From a virus: a stretch of 23,101 nucleotides of DNA. The DNA lies in IMG/VR virus record IMGVR_UViG_3300046517_000893, positions 1 to 23,101 of that record, one strand, 5' to 3'. Both the position numbers and the translations under genes were made by a program. Shown here in pieces: positions 365 to 20,202 of the stretch. The notes beneath the pieces were generated by a model. The model made no database searches. It was given only the letters and a program-made list of their open reading frames with translations, and was not told where the DNA came from. How positions within the stretch are numbered: position 1 is the first letter of the stretch; the number at the start of each line of letters is the position of its first letter.

Positions 365-1483
365 CTACTGGCGCGGCTTGCCGCTGTCAACGGGCGGCGG
401 CGATCCCCGCATCCAGTCGGGCTCATCCAGCGGTCCGCCGGTCGGCGCCGGCGGTGTCTTGTCGGCGTCGCGCTTGGCCCTCAGCTGCTCCTTCACCGCC
501 TGCGTACCCTTGCCGGTCGCCGGCGTCGCCGCGGGCGCCGGCGCGGCCTGCTCGGTCGCCGGCGCCTCCTGCGCGTTGTCCTCGCCCAGGCGCGCCTCGA
601 GCGCGTCCGCCCACGTGATGTGCCCGTCGCGGATCGAGGCGCCCAGGCTGCGCAGTTGCGCGTACTCGTCGGCGGTCATCTGCGCGAGCGGGTGGCCCAG
701 GTACTTCGCGAGCAGCTCGGGGGTCACGCCGATGCCCATATACGCCTCGCACAGCTGCTTGCGCGCGGCGTCCGGGTCGCGCGCCTGGCCGTCCTTCAGC
801 GTGCGCACGCAGCGCGCCATCGCCTCCTCGATGATGTCCGCCGGCACCAGCCGCAGGATCAACGTGCGCATCACCTTGCTGATCTGCGCCTGCATCTTGT
901 TCTGCAGCTCGTCCTCGGACGCCTCCACCAGGTACACCACGTCCCCGTAGCTGTTGCGGCGCTGCCCCTTCGCGATCTGTCCCTGGCGCAGCTGCCGGCG
1001 CTCCACCGTCTTGGCGATCACCAGATCCTGCGTGTACGTGTCGTTCACCTCGAGATCGGTCGCGCACACGCGCAGCTGCCGCATCTCGGGATCGTCGTAC
1101 ACGACGTAGGTTTCCGTCAGCAGGTTACCCATCGCGCGCTTGGCGGCCTCGGCGAACCGGATCGACGGCCCCTCCACGAAGTTGTCCACCCACTGCCCCT
1201 TCTCGTTCTGCCGCTTGCCGCGCTGCACCGAGTACCGCGCCTCGTCCGCGAACGACGGCCGCGAGCACTCGCGGATCAGCGTCACGCGCACGGTGTCGAT
1301 GTCGCGCGGCCGCCGCATCGCGAGCACGTACCGCGCCTCCACGGCCGCCTTCGCCTGCGCGGCCAGCGCGTCGCTCTGCGTCTGCGCGCCGCGGTACGTC
1401 TGCACCTCGCCAAACCCCTGGCGCGTGCCCATCGCCGGGTTCGTCTGCCCCATCGGGATCAGCTGACCATTTCCGTTGTCCAT
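365..1483 (-). CDS. Probable single-strand DNA annealing protein (phage recombinase)
   Basis: This 372-aa protein has a conserved core followed by a Pro/Ala-rich tail from about residue 303. Residues 57-150 contain the pattern RRPRDID...ECSRPSFADEARY...GPSIRFAEAAKRAMGN...ATDLEVN, which I recognise from phage annealing proteins encoded beside recombination nucleases. Residues 252-295 (GVTPELL...YLGHP...T...LRSLGASIRDG) match the usual C-terminal helical block of that group. With the YqaJ-type exonuclease upstream it would form an exonuclease/annealing pair for recombination of phage DNA ends. The start at 1483 is chosen because AGGGGTGA (1495-1488) precedes it; an in-frame ATG at 1507 has no comparable site. 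The gene is last in its operon, just before the terminator. The exact subfamily (RecT, Erf or other) is uncertain. Confidence 0.72.
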   Translation of the reverse strand: MDNGNGQLIPMGQTNPAMGTRQGFGEVQTYRGAQTQSDALAAQAKAAVEARYVLAMRRPRDIDTVRVTLIRECSRPSFADEARYSVQRGKRQNEKGQWVDNFVEGPSIRFAEAAKRAMGNLLTETYVVYDDPEMRQLRVCATDLEVNDTYTQDLVIAKTVERRQLRQGQIAKGQRRNSYGDVVYLVEASEDELQNKMQAQISKVMRTLILRLVPADIIEEAMARCVRTLKDGQARDPDAARKQLCEAYMGIGVTPELLAKYLGHPLAQMTADEYAQLRSLGASIRDGHITWADALEARLGEDNAQEAPATEQAAPAPAATPATGKGTQAVKEQLRAKRDADKTPPAPTGGPLDEPDWMRGSPPPVDSGKPRQ

Positions 1484-1487
1484 GTCG

Positions 1488-1495
1488 TCACCCCT
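1488..1495 (-). promoter_or_regulatory. Strong ribosome binding site fixing the annealing-protein start
   Basis: AGGGGTGA on the minus strand ends four bases before the ATG at 1483. It is a close match to the anti-Shine-Dalgarno complement and argues against the in-frame ATG at 1507. It lies in the 44-base gap after the 63-aa ORF, so this gene is probably translated independently. Confidence 0.6.
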
Positions 1496-1527
1496 GTCGG
1501 TTGCCATGTTGTACTCGTACCACAATC

Positions 1528-1719
1528 CTACCGGAACGGGTGGCCGTGATCGCGCTCGTACTGGTCCAGCGCCTCGTGCCACGCGCGCCCGGCGGCCATC
1601 GCCGCCTCGAACGCCGGCGTGTTGTTCAGGATGTCGAGATCGTCGATCTTCAGCTCGGCATCCCGCATCGCCTTCAGCTTGCCGATCACCTCCTCGCGCG
1701 TGATCTTCCTGTCAGCCAC
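1528..1719 (-). CDS. Small hypothetical protein (63 aa)
   Basis: This short charged protein starts MADRKITREEVIGKLKAMRD and looks mostly helical, ending in a His/Arg-containing tail (ERDHGHPFR). The start is a GTG two bases after the TAG of the MazG-like gene, with GAGGG upstream. Tight packing between the MazG-like and annealing-protein genes supports it being real and co-transcribed with them. There is no recognisable domain. It could be an accessory to DNA metabolism, but only its position suggests so. Confidence 0.6.
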   Translation of the reverse strand: MADRKITREEVIGKLKAMRDAELKIDDLDILNNTPAFEAAMAAGRAWHEALDQYERDHGHPFR

Positions 1720-1721
1720 GG

Positions 1722-2234
1722 CTAGCCGCCCTCGCGCCTGATCACGTCCGCGATCATCATCGCGAAGTTGCCGACGTCGGCGGCCTCGTCGATCACGCGA
1801 TCGTTCTGCCGGTTAGGGCTCGCCAGCGCCTTCGCCAGCTCGTCCACCTCCTCGCGCAGCCGCTTCAGCAGCGCCTTGGGCTCGTCACCGTCCCAGCCGC
1901 CCTTGTGGTCGTTCTCGCGCAGCTTGCGTTCCATGTCGTCCGCGAACTCGAGCACCTCGCTGCGTGGCGTAGCGGTCGCCCTGCCGCCACGGGTCCAGCC
2001 GCCGAGCGCCCGCGCCTTCGCGTCGCGATCGTGGCCGATCTTCACCGCGTCCTCCTTGTGCCTGTCCACGGCGCACTTCAGGTGATCGATCGTGCTGCCA
2101 CACGCGGCCAGGCGCGCCTCGAGATCACGGACCTGCTCGCGGTGCGCGCGATCATCGGCGGCCAGCTGGCGGATCGTCTCGCGCTGCTCGGCCACGATCT
2201 CGGCCAGCGCGGCCACCGTTCCATCGCTCGCCAC
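1722..2234 (-). CDS. MazG-like nucleotide pyrophosphohydrolase with N-terminal helical extension
   Basis: This 170-aa protein has two parts. Residues 1-75 are a charged, heptad-like helical stretch (EQRETIRQLAADDRAHREQ...). Residues 93-170 look like a MazG-type all-alpha NTP pyrophosphohydrolase: MERKLRENDHKGGW, then REEVDEL with E128, E129 and E132, then EAAD with E150 and D153. These fit the EExxE...ExxD metal-binding pattern of the family. MazG enzymes hydrolyse (d)NTPs or alarmones; phage versions are thought to adjust nucleotide pools or host stress signalling. The start is set at GTG 2234 because GAGGAG (2247-2242) sits seven bases upstream; an upstream GTG at 2252 lacks this. The upstream TAG lies between that site and the start, so translation is probably coupled. 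Confidence 0.75.
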   Translation of the reverse strand: MASDGTVAALAEIVAEQRETIRQLAADDRAHREQVRDLEARLAACGSTIDHLKCAVDRHKEDAVKIGHDRDAKARALGGWTRGGRATATPRSEVLEFADDMERKLRENDHKGGWDGDEPKALLKRLREEVDELAKALASPNRQNDRVIDEAADVGNFAMMIADVIRREGG

Positions 2235-2238
2235 GGCG

Positions 2239-3366
2239 CTACTCCTCGCCACCGGTCCAGCTGCGCGGCACGTTGAACCGCCGCGATCCGGCCTTGGTGA
2301 TCTTGGTGTACTTCGCCTTCAGATCCTCGAGCACCAGCTCCTGCACCGCGACGCCCAGGATCGAGAACAGCTCGCCGCCGATGTCCTGCGTGATCGTGCC
2401 TGCGCTCGCCAGCTCCTCGATGCGCTGCGCGGCCGCGGTGATGGTCAGGTTCGTGCTGGTCAGCGCCTGCATCGCGAGCGCCTGCCAATCGACGCCCATC
2501 GAGTCCGCACAGCGCTTCCACGTGATCTTGGCCGTGCCCTTCCCCTCCGGGTTCGGGAACGAGATCCCGGCGGCGTCGCCGATCGCCTCCTTGATGTGCT
2601 GCTCGATCAGCTCCTTGCGGCGCTTCAGCGACGCCTCCTCGATGCGCAGCTCGCGCAGCTCGGCGGCCGCCGCCGCGATCGCCTCGTCGGCCTCCACGAT
2701 CTGCTCGCCCAGGTGCTTGGGGTGCTTGCGCAGCAGCGCGGCCGCGTAGCTCTCGCTGCCGTCCGGCGGCGGCGGCACGCCGGCCTTGACGTAACGCTCG
2801 TCGAAATGCTGCACTGCATCGGCCAGGATCTGCTCCAGCTCGAGATCGCGCCGGATCGTGTACGGCGTGAACTCGCCATCGATCAACGCCACCAGGTCCC
2901 ACTCGGGCAGGCCGGTGCAGCCCATGTACCACGCGCACTGCAGCAGCTCCCACGGCGGCACTTGATCGGTGCCGGCGTCGCCGTACAGGTGCCGCAGGTG
3001 GATCGTGTGCGTCTTGATCTCCATGCCGCGATCCGGCTCGTCGCCGCGCAGCATCGCCAGCTCGGTGTTCCACACGATGCCGTCCGGCGTGCCCAGCCAC
3101 CAGGGCAGCGTGGGATGCACGATCGTGCCGGGCTGGCGGATCACCGCGCCCGGCCGGTGATCTTCCACGTACCAGGCGCGCGCCGGCGCCTCGAATCGGT
3201 GGCCGTTGCGGCTGCGCTCGGTGGACTCGCGCGCGGGCGCGCGGCCCGTCTTGTCCTCCCAGACGTCATACGGACGCTTCCACGGGTTCTTGCCCATGAT
3301 CGCGCCCACGTCGCTGCCGCCGTACCCCAGGCGTCGGATCTCTTGCTGTGCGTTGCTCAGTCCCAT
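2239..3366 (-). CDS. YqaJ-type viral recombinase / phage exonuclease
   Basis: This 375-aa protein has the PD-(D/E)XK nuclease signature of the YqaJ/lambda-exonuclease group. It shows GGSDVGAIMG (16-25), GHRFE (E59), GTPDGIV (D95), MEIKT (E116 and K118) and LLQCAWYM (Q143). The first ~200 residues hold the nuclease fold. The rest is helical and charged, with ELRELRIEEASLKRRKELIE-type segments typical of the C-terminal half of phage YqaJ proteins. It should degrade one strand of linear double-stranded DNA to expose single strands for the annealing protein encoded two genes downstream. AGGAG precedes the ATG at 3366 by ten bases. Confidence 0.88.
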   Translation of the reverse strand: MGLSNAQQEIRRLGYGGSDVGAIMGKNPWKRPYDVWEDKTGRAPARESTERSRNGHRFEAPARAWYVEDHRPGAVIRQPGTIVHPTLPWWLGTPDGIVWNTELAMLRGDEPDRGMEIKTHTIHLRHLYGDAGTDQVPPWELLQCAWYMGCTGLPEWDLVALIDGEFTPYTIRRDLELEQILADAVQHFDERYVKAGVPPPPDGSESYAAALLRKHPKHLGEQIVEADEAIAAAAAELRELRIEEASLKRRKELIEQHIKEAIGDAAGISFPNPEGKGTAKITWKRCADSMGVDWQALAMQALTSTNLTITAAAQRIEELASAGTITQDIGGELFSILGVAVQELVLEDLKAKYTKITKAGSRRFNVPRSWTGGEE

Positions 3367-15665: not shown

Positions 15666-17567
15666 CTAGCCCTCCCTGAGCGCGTTCATGGCGCTGCTCG
15701 GGTTGCGCGCGGCGTCGCGGAACGACTCGATCGCCTGGAACACGAACCGATCCGGATCGTCGGACTTCACCTCGATGCGCTGGATCGTCACGTTCACCTT
15801 CGCGCCCTTCGCCATCTTGTCCGTGTTGGAGAGCTTGCCGGTGGGATCGTCGGTGTACTTCTTCAGGATGTCGAGAACGTGCTGCGGATCCAGGTAGCCG
15901 TACCCGCCGCTGTTCAGGCTCTTGACCACCTCCTCGAGAATGGCCTCCTGCGCGCGGTTCACGTTCAGCGTGTCCTTCTGGTAGGACGTCAGCTTGTCCA
16001 CGCCGTTCAGATAGTCGCCCTGGGTGATCGCCTGGCTGTTGCCGGCGAGCTGCCCCAGGTGGCTGATCTTGTCCTGCAGATCGCCGATCATCTGCTGGTA
16101 GGCGTCGGACGTTTCGCTCAGATTGGACTTCAGGTCCAATCCGTACTTGGATCCGAGATCCTGCAGCCCGGCGCTGTCACCGCTGCCGATGTAGTTTTGG
16201 AACTTCTGGAACCCGCCCTGGGGCGCCTGGAACTGCGTGAGCAGGCTCAGCTGCTGCTTGTACAGATCGAGCTGCCCCTGCTGGATCGTCGCTGCCGACG
16301 TCTCAGCCACGCCGCTCATGCCGCCCTTGCCGCGCGCGCGATCGGCCGCCGCGTTCACCGCGTTGTCCCAGGCGTCCATCGCGTCACTGACGGCCTGTTG
16401 CTTCTGCTGGATGCGATCGGCTGCCCAGTCGAAAGACCCCGTCAGCTTCTTGATCTCGGTGATCATCGAATCCACCGCGGGGTTCAGCGCGTCGCCGATC
16501 ATGTACCCCACGCCGAACGCTGCGCCGAGCTGCGGCATGTTGCCGGCGATGCCGCCCAGGCCCTTCACGTCTGCGCCGAGTCCACCGGCGCCCTTGACGA
16601 GGCTGCCGAGCGTGCCGCCGAGCATGCCGGCGCCCTTCGCCGCCAGCCAGATCTCGCCCAGCTTGATCAGCAGATCCTTGTGCTGCACCAGGAACGAGAT
16701 CGCGTCCTTCACCATGCGGAATCCCTCCACCAGGCCCTCGCCCAGGGACTTCGCCATGCGCTCGATCTTGCCCTGATTCGCACTGATGTACTGATTCCAG
16801 TGCTGCACCTCGGCGGTGATTGCCTTGAACAGCGGCAATCCCACCTTGCCGAGGAGGATCTGCAGGTTGTCCTTCAGCGTGCTGGTCACTCCAGAGAAGG
16901 ACTCGCTGAACGCCTGGGTGGCATTCTTCATCGCCGGGCTGTTCAGCACCTTCTCGATCACGTCCATTCGGCCGTGGCCGGACAGCTTCTTGAACGCCTC
17001 CTCGGTCATGTTCGCCATGCCCAGGATCTGCTTGGCGAACAACATGCGGTTGTTCACGTTGCCCATCAGCATCTCGGAGATCTCGCGCGAGACGTAGCCC
17101 GTCTCCATCCCGAGCGCCTTCGCGGCCACGGTGCCCTGCTCGGCCATCGTGGTGAAGTCGTGCAGCCCACCGCCGGCCTGGAACGTCGCGACGGCCACCG
17201 CGTTGCCGAACTCCATCACGTCCTGCGTGGTGACGGGCGTCAGTTGGCTGAACTTCTGGAACTCGTTGTACAGCCGATCCGCGTTCGCGGTTGCCATCTC
17301 CCAGCTGCCGCCGCGGTTGCCCTGCAGCATCGTCGACAGCCCGATCTTGGCGTTCTGCACCTCCTCGTTGAACCCGATCAGCGCTTTCTCGGCCTCGTGG
17401 ATGCCGAACGCCCCGACGATCATCGCCCCGACGTGGCCGATCGTCGAACCCAGCCCACCCGTGGCGTGCGATGCCCCCTCGGCCGCGTCCTCGATCCCCT
17501 TCAGGCCCTTGCTCGCCTTGTCATCGAGCAGGTACCTCAGGCGGATGTCATACGTGGTGGTGGGCAT
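15666..17567 (-). CDS. Tail tape measure protein
   Basis: This 633-aa protein follows the two-product chaperone gene, the standard place for the tape measure. It is largely helical, with an N-terminal hydrophobic Gly/Ala segment (about 38-57) and a second long Gly-rich hydrophobic stretch (about 305-360). Gln-rich helices and a polar C-terminus follow. The N-terminal half contains NEEVQNAKIGLSTMLQGN and QILGMANMTEEAFKKLS, typical of Mu- and lambdoid-type tape measures. No peptidase or lysozyme domain is visible. At the usual ~1.5 angstrom per residue the tail would be near 95 nm. AGGACGAG precedes the ATG and overlaps the stop of the frameshifted ORF. Confidence 0.85.
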   Translation of the reverse strand: MPTTTYDIRLRYLLDDKASKGLKGIEDAAEGASHATGGLGSTIGHVGAMIVGAFGIHEAEKALIGFNEEVQNAKIGLSTMLQGNRGGSWEMATANADRLYNEFQKFSQLTPVTTQDVMEFGNAVAVATFQAGGGLHDFTTMAEQGTVAAKALGMETGYVSREISEMLMGNVNNRMLFAKQILGMANMTEEAFKKLSGHGRMDVIEKVLNSPAMKNATQAFSESFSGVTSTLKDNLQILLGKVGLPLFKAITAEVQHWNQYISANQGKIERMAKSLGEGLVEGFRMVKDAISFLVQHKDLLIKLGEIWLAAKGAGMLGGTLGSLVKGAGGLGADVKGLGGIAGNMPQLGAAFGVGYMIGDALNPAVDSMITEIKKLTGSFDWAADRIQQKQQAVSDAMDAWDNAVNAAADRARGKGGMSGVAETSAATIQQGQLDLYKQQLSLLTQFQAPQGGFQKFQNYIGSGDSAGLQDLGSKYGLDLKSNLSETSDAYQQMIGDLQDKISHLGQLAGNSQAITQGDYLNGVDKLTSYQKDTLNVNRAQEAILEEVVKSLNSGGYGYLDPQHVLDILKKYTDDPTGKLSNTDKMAKGAKVNVTIQRIEVKSDDPDRFVFQAIESFRDAARNPSSAMNALREG

Positions 17568-17573
17568 CTCGTC

Positions 17574-18151
17574 CTAGTCGGGTTCGGGTGGTGCGGTCAC
17601 CTGTTCGTTGTGTCGCTCGATCAACTCGTCGGTCTCGTCCATCAGCAGGAACCGCTCCATCTTGGTCAGCCTCAGGAAGTCGTCCCAGGTTCCGACGTTC
17701 ACGTGGTGCCAGGCCAGGCGCGCGTAGGAGCGCGCGAGCGCCCGCTTCACTTCCCAGTAGCGGCCGCCTGCGGCAAGGGGGCGGGCGTCAGCAGCTGCGC
17801 CCCCTTCAGGCACTTTCCCAGCTCGTCCTCCGGGATCCCGTTCATGTCGGCGTAGTACCGCGCGAGCACCGTCCAGATGCGGACGCCCCACGTCTCGCGG
17901 ATCTCGAGCAGCTTGGGATCATCGGCGCCCACGATCGGCTGATCGTCGATCGCGACGATCGACAGCAGGATCGCCTCGCGGTGCTCGTGCCGCAGCGCGA
18001 TCACCGCCGAACGCTTCGCCTCCTGGGACATCACCTGATCGGCGGACAGCGCTGCGATGATCTCGTCACCGCCGCGCAGCTCGCGGATCGTCACGCTCTT
18101 GCACTCGAGGCCCTTGGGCACCGAGTACCTCTTGGAAATCGTCTCCGACAT
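17574..18151 (-). CDS. Tail assembly chaperone G-T fusion (programmed -1 frameshift product)
   Basis: Ribosomes slipping back one base at GGGAAAG (17819-17813) leave the 134-aa frame after codon 113 and continue from GTG at 17813 to the stop at 17576-17574. The product is about 192 aa: 113 shared residues plus a 79-residue T part (VPEGGAAADARPLAAGGRYW onward). The T part is helical, with WDDFLRLTKMERFLLMDETDELIERH. In lambda-type systems G and G-T coat the tape measure during tube assembly in a set ratio. The downstream frame has no good start of its own, and the tape measure follows seven bases after the T stop. Confidence 0.85.
17747..18151 (-). CDS. Tail assembly chaperone, unshifted G product
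   Basis: This 134-aa protein starts MSETISKRYSVPKGLECKSV and contains TIRELRGGDEIIAAL and a central helical domain. This is the profile of tail-assembly chaperones encoded between tube and tape measure (lambda gpG, Mu gp41). Termination after the slippery site adds a 21-residue Pro/Ala-rich tail instead of the T domain. AGGAG lies eight bases before the ATG. The G form is expected to be in large excess over G-T. Confidence 0.82.
   Translation of the reverse strand: MSETISKRYSVPKGLECKSVTIRELRGGDEIIAALSADQVMSQEAKRSAVIALRHEHREAILLSIVAIDDQPIVGADDPKLLEIRETWGVRIWTVLARYYADMNGIPEDELGKCLKGAQLLTPAPLPQAAATGK
17775..17819 (-). promoter_or_regulatory. -1 ribosomal frameshift signal (GGGAAAG plus stem-loop)
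   Basis: The heptamer G GGA AAG occupies 17819-17813 in the frame of the G product (codons 112-113), identical to the lambda G/T slippery sequence. Six bases later an 8-bp perfect stem forms, AAGGGGGC (17806-17799) with GCCCCCTT (17782-17775), around a 16-base loop that holds the self-complementary GCAGCTGC. Such a stem could pause ribosomes and raise slippage. Confidence 0.88.
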
Positions 18152-18223: not shown

Positions 18224-18670
18224 CTACGGCGCGTTGATCACCGTGCGCGTCTTGCAGCGGCCCTCGAACGTGGACGCCACGCGCTCCTTGCGGCCGCCAG
18301 CGCCGCGGTTGCTGACCTTCAGGAACACCTCCGGGTACACCTCGATCTTGGGGCGGTTGCCCGTCTCGCGGTACACGTAGGTGGCCGTGATGGTGATCTT
18401 GGGGTGCTGCTGCGACGCCTCCTCGAGCGTGGTGATCGTGGTCAGGAAGTCGATCACCTTGGAGTCCTGCTCGTCGCACTCGAAGTCCAGCGACCACCCG
18501 TGGTGCTGGATGTCGAGATCGGTCTGCGGCTCGCCGATGTAGTCGTCCTCCACCAGATCGGTGCGCGGCGTCGCCTTGAAGGACTTCACCTTGAAGAACG
18601 ACCCCGTTTGCAGCTGGCCGTTGACGGCAACCCGAAGGGTTACCTCTTGGCCTCTTTGCCTCGCGCTCAT
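18224..18670 (-). CDS. Tail tube protein
   Basis: This 148-aa, beta-rich protein lies directly after the sheath gene, the standard position of the contractile-tail tube. Recognisable segments are VTLRVAVNGQLQTGSFFKVK (10-29), PRTDLVEDDYIGEPQTDLDI and WSLDFECDEQ. The end, ITATYVYRETGNRPKIEVYP, matches XkdM-type tube proteins. Hexameric rings stack to form the rigid inner tube that is driven through the envelope. GGAG precedes the ATG. The 53-base spacer from the sheath contains a run of CAACC-type repeats. Confidence 0.82.
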   Translation of the reverse strand: MSARQRGQEVTLRVAVNGQLQTGSFFKVKSFKATPRTDLVEDDYIGEPQTDLDIQHHGWSLDFECDEQDSKVIDFLTTITTLEEASQQHPKITITATYVYRETGNRPKIEVYPEVFLKVSNRGAGGRKERVASTFEGRCKTRTVINAP

Positions 18671-18723: not shown

Positions 18724-20202
18724 CTAGGCGGCCTGCTCGGTGATCGTCACGTCGGTGCCGATCTCCGTCTGCAGCACCAGGCTGTTCATGTGGCCGATCA
18801 GCTTCACGCGCCACAGCACCTGCTCGATGTTCTGCGCGCGCTGCGCGTCGGTGTTCACGCTCGCGCTGTCGATCGCGAAGTCCTCCACGATGCGGCCCTT
18901 GTTCCGCAGCTCGTTCGAGAACGCCACCAGCTCGCCGATCATGCTGGCGCGGTTCGCCGGCGTGTTCAGCGCCTTGACGTAGTGGCGCAGCCGATCGGCC
19001 GCGGACAGCTGCAGGTAGTCGGCGCTGCGCCGGCGCGTGATCTCCGTCTTGCCGGGGTTCAGGTCCGTGGTGACGCCCATGCGGAACCGGAACTCGCCGG
19101 GCAGGCGCTCGATCGCGCTGATGCCGGCGTTCTGCAGCCCGATCAGCTGCGAGCGCGTCAGGTTCGGGTTGTACAGGCGCTTGATGCCGGCGAGCAGCGG
19201 CGTCGCGTCCGCGGCGCCGGGGTGCACGTCCACCTCGAGCTGCGACAGGATCGACGCCATCCAGACGTGCGGCCCGGTCACCGTCTCGGTGCCGGTCACC
19301 GGATCGATCGTGTACGGCGCGTTGTAGCACCACACGATGCGATCGCTGCGCGTCGTGATCTGCGTGCCGATGTCGGTCACGTCGTCCGTGTCGGTGTTGG
19401 TCTCGTCGCTGCTCCACGTGAGGAACATGCGATCGGCGACGGTCGGCGCGAGCGCCACCAGGTACCCGTTGACAGTCGCCGGCGTCGGCGCCTTTTCCGG
19501 CACCAGCACGACACCCACGCCGGGCTCCACGGACATGTCCGACAGCGGCGTGTTGTAATCGGACGCCACGGCCGTGCCGTCCGCGCCGGTGGTGAGCGAC
19601 GCCGCCGCGCTGTTCACCGGGCGGCCGTCCGCCAGCTTGGTCGCCACGATCACGTTCGCGTCGTCGTCGCCGATCGTCGTCGCGAGGTTGTCCTGGCCGG
19701 TCTGCGTGTTCAGGTTCTCGTAGGTGTACGTCTTGCCGTCGTACGTCACCACCAGGTTGAAGTGGGTGGCGTCGGCGTCGGTCGCGTCCACCACCGCCAC
19801 CTGCACGTCGTTCCCCCACGCGCCCTTGCTCGTCGCGTCCACGCGCACGATCGCGGTGGGCACCGCGTTGGACAAGTTCTTGGTCGCGAGCGCCGCATCC
19901 GCGGGCACCACGCGACGCACCGAGATCGTGCCGAACTGCTTGTTCAGCAGCCCCTTCCACACCTCGCCCAGCAGCGTGCCGGGCGCACCCGGGCGCGCGC
20001 GGCCGCCGTAGATCTCGAGGAAGCGCCCCGACGTCGTGATCGTGATCGGCCGCTCGGGGCCGCGCACGCACTTGCCGACGAACCCGACCACGGACTGATC
20101 GATCCCGCGGATGAACCCCGGCGGGTTCTGCTCGCTGACGTACAGGCCGGGCAGCTTGCTGAACTCCGACGGATTGGTGGTGAAGTAGACATCGCTCGGC
20201 AT
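18724..20202 (-). CDS. Tail sheath protein
   Basis: This 492-aa protein starts with a short extended arm and LPGLYVSEQNPPGFIRGIDQ (17-36), as in many sheath proteins. VVGFVGKCVRGP, a nucleus including TSGRFLEIYGGR, and a variable middle domain (about 110-260) follow. The conserved C-terminal domain has GEFRFRMGVTTDLNPGKTEI and ends IGHMNSLVLQTEIGTDVTI. This C-terminal block and arm interlock neighbouring subunits. Its presence shows a contractile tail, i.e. a myovirus-type particle. GGAGGA precedes the ATG by five bases. Confidence 0.92.
   Translation of the reverse strand: MPSDVYFTTNPSEFSKLPGLYVSEQNPPGFIRGIDQSVVGFVGKCVRGPERPITITTSGRFLEIYGGRARPGAPGTLLGEVWKGLLNKQFGTISVRRVVPADAALATKNLSNAVPTAIVRVDATSKGAWGNDVQVAVVDATDADATHFNLVVTYDGKTYTYENLNTQTGQDNLATTIGDDDANVIVATKLADGRPVNSAAASLTTGADGTAVASDYNTPLSDMSVEPGVGVVLVPEKAPTPATVNGYLVALAPTVADRMFLTWSSDETNTDTDDVTDIGTQITTRSDRIVWCYNAPYTIDPVTGTETVTGPHVWMASILSQLEVDVHPGAADATPLLAGIKRLYNPNLTRSQLIGLQNAGISAIERLPGEFRFRMGVTTDLNPGKTEITRRRSADYLQLSAADRLRHYVKALNTPANRASMIGELVAFSNELRNKGRIVEDFAIDSASVNTDAQRAQNIEQVLWRVKLIGHMNSLVLQTEIGTDVTITEQAA

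Follow-up and report, generated by a model that had tools for sequence, protein, structure and literature searches.

The complete 23,101-nt IMG/VR virus record analyzed here (hereafter the window) very probably relies on programmed -1 ribosomal frameshifting, of the kind known from lambda G/GT, within its tail assembly chaperone gene. The tail genes of this phage were found on the minus strand (Table 1) in the order sheath, tube, chaperone, and tape measure, an order common to the window and its relatives, with the chaperone gene sitting between the tube and tape measure genes and the baseplate genes lying beyond the tape measure. The tape measure protein had no Pfam or PHROG match at E < 0.001, and Rfam and tRNA scans of the window were both empty. 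At 365-3366 (minus strand) the window was also found to encode a RecE-like exonuclease (phrog_434, YqaJ domain) and, close to it, a phrog_3657 protein; counterparts of the latter with 42% identity occur in Acinetobacter phages, and the tail genes are without a close cultured relative.

Table 1. Coordinates of the tail genes and of the elements of the proposed shift site (window positions unless a relative is named)
Feature	Position	Strand	Basis or remark
Contractile tail sheath protein	18724..20202	-	phrog_279, E 2.8e-16; Pfam PF17482, E 2.5e-6
Tail tube protein	18224..18670	-	position and conservation (34-55% identity in relatives)
Zero-frame gene, tail assembly chaperone (gpG-like), 134 aa	17747..18151	-	ORF, predicted fold, position, 25 relatives
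SD-like GGAGG, possible 5' stimulator	17827..17831	-	7 nt upstream of heptamer; anti-SD duplex -9.5 kcal/mol
Slippery heptamer G_GGA_AAG	17813..17819	-	sequence; 18/25 relatives have a heptamer of this type, usually in the matching position
-1 frame extension, 79 codons and stop, putative T-like domain of the fusion	17574..17813	-	conserved domain, -1 register
5' arm of downstream stem, AAGGGGGCG	17798..17806	-	6 nt after heptamer; clade-level fold peak
3' arm of downstream stem, CGCCCCCTT	17775..17783	-	pairs with AAGGGGGCG
Tape measure protein	15666..17567	-	position and 27-42% identity to counterparts
Heptamer-less -1 layout, L091	7414-7566
Heptamer-less -1 layout, L092	7418-7570
Heptamer-less -1 layout, L093, L094, and L096	same place

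The anatomy of the site was largely as the first-pass annotation had described it. The heptamer covers codons 112-113 of the chaperone gene and lies in slip phase (ORF offset 332, where 332 mod 3 = 2), reading CT G GGA AAG TGC; it is the sole in-phase X_XXY_YYZ heptamer of this ORF, and the site has no single-base run longer than 3. A -1 shift at this position enters, as had been proposed, an open frame of 79 codons that runs from a GTG (17813) to a TAG stop (17576-17574) and would yield a fusion of 192 aa (113+79). The gap between this stop and the tape-measure ATG at 17567 was 6 nt and not the seven bases given earlier. The stem formed by AAGGGGGCG and CGCCCCCTT was indeed perfect and separated from the heptamer by a 6-nt spacer, but it comprised 9 bp instead of 8, enclosing a loop of 14 nt; the GCAGCTGC that had been placed in this loop was present, overlapping the last G of the stem as well.

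Judged on the window by itself, neither the heptamer nor the stem exceeded composition-matched chance at such a G+C content. Synonymous shuffling of the window overlap produced a heptamer somewhere in 31% of shuffles, and the stem was not significant against dinucleotide shuffles (z about 0 over 63 nt and -1.3 over 50 nt). Because this window-only folding z-score gave no support, the 'strong stem' that had been put forward was rejected as stand-alone evidence. The genes of the window, as delimited in this analysis, contain just seven in-phase X_XXY_YYZ heptamers, among which the chaperone site was the only one to (i) end in AAG, thus being the sole site with an AAG A-site codon; (ii) be followed by the strongest downstream fold (-27.0 kcal/mol, in the lowest 2% of 50-nt windows); and (iii) be preceded by the strongest SD-like sequence (-9.5, in the strongest 5% of positions). 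An in-phase GGGGGGT was also detected at 20921-20915 (minus strand), three codons from the end of an HK97-gp10-like gene, whose -1 frame there runs open into the following gene; this sequence probably serves for ribosome binding where the genes overlap, not for a shift. On these sequence comparisons, the significance of the chaperone site derives from its relatives and not from the window alone.

Single-sequence searches with the chaperone or sheath protein against viral contigs, genome contigs, phages, and plasmids returned nothing useful. Relatives were instead reached by a baseplate J alignment, which identified three contigs at 50-58% identity, and then by sheath alignments, with searches in two of these three contigs giving matches at 53-54% identity and the sheath alignment searches extending to 29 loci. 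Profiles of the two chaperone halves detected both halves in 25 of the 29 loci as well as in the window, and these 26 loci formed the comparison set. The 25 relatives are previously unlinked metagenomic-virus loci, and with the window phage they appear to make up a clade of myoviruses for which searches by sheath or chaperone sequence detected no close cultured relative. The sheath alignment found no relative among GTDB genomes, and so no host was assigned. Two further IMG/VR fragments from other metagenomes (L003 and L004) encode gp25 and baseplate J proteins identical to those of the window phage; both fragments end short of the chaperone.

In 26/26 loci, passing from the first half to the second takes a -1 change of frame. 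The second half is a conserved protein domain (RxLxxEWxRxxWH...W..YL.L....R......L.DLIERxN), with the extension sharing 22-45% identity in most relatives. The distance from its stop to the start of the tape measure gene was measured in 15 loci and was no more than about 25 nt except in L096, where it is about 540 nt; the extra sequence in this phage (3828-4365) is absent from near-identical relatives. Ahead of the conserved domain, the -1 frame of 16 of the 25 relatives was found to have no ATG, GTG, or TTG, and the domain was still in the -1 register. This finding bears on the idea that no frameshift takes place and that the -1 part of the window is a separate protein, started from the GTG at 17813 (GGGAAAGTG) by coupled re-initiation off the GGAGG. 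In favor of such a start, the -1 frame has its GTG precisely where the shift would occur, with the GGAGG 13 nt upstream and an anti-SD energy of -9.5; however, GGAGG and GTG are rather widely spaced for initiation, the slippery heptamer is in itself enriched (see below), and separate initiation cannot explain the clade because of the 16 relatives that lack a -1 start before the domain. We consider re-initiation very unlikely, and programmed frameshifting remains the preferred reading.

A strict X_XXY_YYZ heptamer was found in the overlap of 19/26 loci (18/25 relatives), compared with 5.9 expected under synonymous codon shuffling; the tail probability was 4e-9 when the loci are treated as independent, which they are not. 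The heptamers consisted of AAAAAA followed by A, C, or G (7 loci), TTTTTT followed by C or G (7 loci), GGGAAAG (the window and L098), and TTTAAAG, CCCTTTG, and CCCTTTA. They were not all at the identical codon, with L098, L102, and L109 departing from the position used by other loci, and in several loci (e.g., L090 and L100) a stop codon opens the -1 frame directly before the heptamer. When mapped on the sheath tree, the site class was found to change at least 9 times, with GGGAAAG arising twice independently and the layout unchanged throughout. The description of the window heptamer as lambda-identical thus holds for the heptamer, but it is no mark of special kinship with lambda because most relatives use other heptamers. 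The seven relatives without a strict heptamer likewise retained the -1 layout, and among these L091 has no start ahead of the domain; heptamer loss was therefore not accompanied by a switch to two frames with separate starts, the outcome that had been named as counting against a frameshift.

These comparisons also weigh on two further explanations. The fusion could arise by transcriptional slippage on a homopolymer, for which the A6-A7 or T6 runs of some relatives would be suited; the lack of any run above 3 at the window site, the absence of a six-base run from 12/26 sites, and the presence of downstream fold and SD-like signals, which are translational features, make this extremely improbable. 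Alternatively, two unrelated genes could overlap, or a sequencing indel could have occurred, beside a heptamer present by coincidence. At this composition neither the heptamer nor the stem stands out by itself, as such a coincidence would have it, yet the same -1 relation recurs in 26/26 contigs and the signals converge on one place. As a general account this explanation was refuted by the relatives, and for the window we give it next to no credence.

Averaged over the 19 canonical loci, the 50-nt folding energy was lowest exactly after the heptamer, at -17.5 kcal/mol, with values of about -11 to either side and -12.5 at random coding positions, and 0/20000 draws from neighbouring coding sequence matched the value after the site. 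After correction for composition, the mean z was -0.8 over 50 nt and -1.4 +/- 0.25 over 40 nt at a 5-nt offset; it was about zero once the offset reached 40 nt. This effect came mainly from the phages with AAAAAAN and GGGAAAG and was weaker in those with TTTTTTN. The downstream stem is thus supported as a clade-level tendency; it lacked covariation support, because each lineage tends to have a different hairpin. In the 12 nt upstream of the site, SD-like pairing had a clade mean of -6.8 vs a null of -3.9 (0/20000 draws), although part of this signal may reflect Glu codons. Overall, the retention of both halves, always in the -1 register, and the presence of heptamer, fold, and SD-like signals at the site in the relatives bear out the frameshift reading of the first-pass annotation.

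Five of the heptamer-less relatives (L091, L092, L093, L094, and L096) were found to be monophyletic (support 100/100) and to keep the -1 layout with no X_XXY_YYZ heptamer. Tentatively, and with somewhat less than even confidence, we suggest that this clade keeps the -1 chaperone fusion by shifting at G_GGG_YTG; two other phages, L101 and L103, have the similar T_TTT_CTN. The candidate site reads G_GGG_TTG in L091, where the -1 opening begins directly at this sequence, and G_GGG_CTG in the other four. Full re-pairing at G_GGG_YTG would be available to the P-site tRNA only. Possible aids to the shift are a GAGGAG about 8 nt ahead of the site and, in 4/5 of these phages, a stable downstream fold. 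A later candidate, C_CCC_GCN, is likewise conserved in the clade; G_GGG_YTG appears the more likely of the two because the -1 reading is conserved early. Among the four close members of the clade, sequence variation before the site was mainly at zero-frame third positions (22/35), while past the zero-frame stop it was mainly at -1-frame third positions (14/17), as were 3/4 variable sites within the overlap (Fisher p = 0.003 comparing before with after, and p = 0.057 comparing before with overlap). Two separate genes would also give the before/after switch, so what bears on a shift is the overlap together with the absent starts, and as evidence for a shift in this clade these are suggestive only. 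In L101 (7443) and L103 (7377), T_TTT_CTN replaces T_TTT_TTN at or near the shift site, and A-site re-pairing at T_TTT_CTN would be poor. According to the authors of PRFect, most annotated phage frameshift overlaps are without an X_XXY_YYZ motif (PMC10274946), and the heptamer-less clade would therefore be a variant within known ground.

The product of the zero frame was identified through its predicted structure. No Pfam or PHROG family was assigned to the window chaperone by sequence profile; among the relatives, one had a weak match to Pfam Gp41_Mu (E 0.01) and two matched the phrog_508 tail assembly chaperone (best E 0.006). The AlphaFold model of the zero-frame product (pLDDT 91.5) was compared with BFVD by Foldseek and retrieved several matches named tail assembly chaperone at a probability of 1.00 (E about 1e-2, TM 0.45-0.58), with the best match being unnamed (E 2e-3); Mu FS-gp41 was matched at a probability of 0.80. 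A fold search of the PDB with the same model gave nothing significant, the best TM score being that of YqbN (E 8.6). The predicted fold of the first half thus matches known tail assembly chaperones. The -1 domain was modelled at a pLDDT of 82. In L107 (7029-7758) and L109 (6012-6786), the zero-frame chaperone ORF is almost double in length and partially matches the chaperone profile a second time, which would fit a duplication or an insert.

The heptamer of lambda G/GT is G_GGA_AAG, and that of P2 E/E' is T_TTT_TTG. In lambda, a low-level -1 shift yields gpG and gpGT at about 30:1, with G binding the tape measure and T recruiting the tail tube subunit (PMC5009743). G_GGA_AAG is highly shift-prone in E. 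coli assays and is also used by the archaeal virus HCTV-5 (PMC5009743), and GGGAAAG serves gpG/gpGT of TP901-1 (PMC4493119). The window site resembles lambda G/GT in its heptamer, its place between the major tail protein and the tape measure, the -1 direction, and the pairing of a short with an extended product; it differs in belonging to a contractile-tailed phage and in having a hairpin and an SD-like element nearby, and profile searches revealed no sequence similarity between the two systems. In TP901-1 of lactococci the chaperone gene likewise carries GGGAAAG at its 3' end, but this phage is a siphovirus of a Gram-positive host and is unrelated in sequence. The contractile tail and gene order are shared with the myoviruses Mu (gp41/FS-gp41) and P2 (E/E'); however, the Mu tail chaperone shift is -2 (PMC5009743), in contrast to the -1 of all 26 loci here, and the T_TTT_TTG of P2 is found in some of the relatives but not in the window.

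From these parallels and the arrangement of the site, we infer that the shift occurs at some frequency and that both products have roles in tail assembly, as follows. Ribosomes translating the mRNA of the 134-aa chaperone would pause at G_GGA_AAG, with help from the GGAGG that precedes it and from the GC-rich hairpin that begins 6 nt after it, and in a minority of passages both tRNAs would re-pair one base back (GGG AAA), after which the -1 frame would be read for 79 codons to give the 192-aa fusion. As in lambda, the tape measure protein would then be coated by the short product, with the extension of the long one serving to recruit tail tube protein; slippage would set the short:long ratio.

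The window site is well supported as ordinary in kind, namely a lambda-type tail chaperone frameshift in an uncultivated clade of contractile-tailed phages, to which the G/GT type of frameshift is thereby extended. With a constant frame relation and a changing slippery sequence, the set of 26 loci offers a natural panel for the parts that a bacterial shift site needs, including lineages that apparently manage without a canonical heptamer. Furthermore, annotations should present the second frame in these phages as part of a fusion instead of treating it as a gene of its own or as missing.
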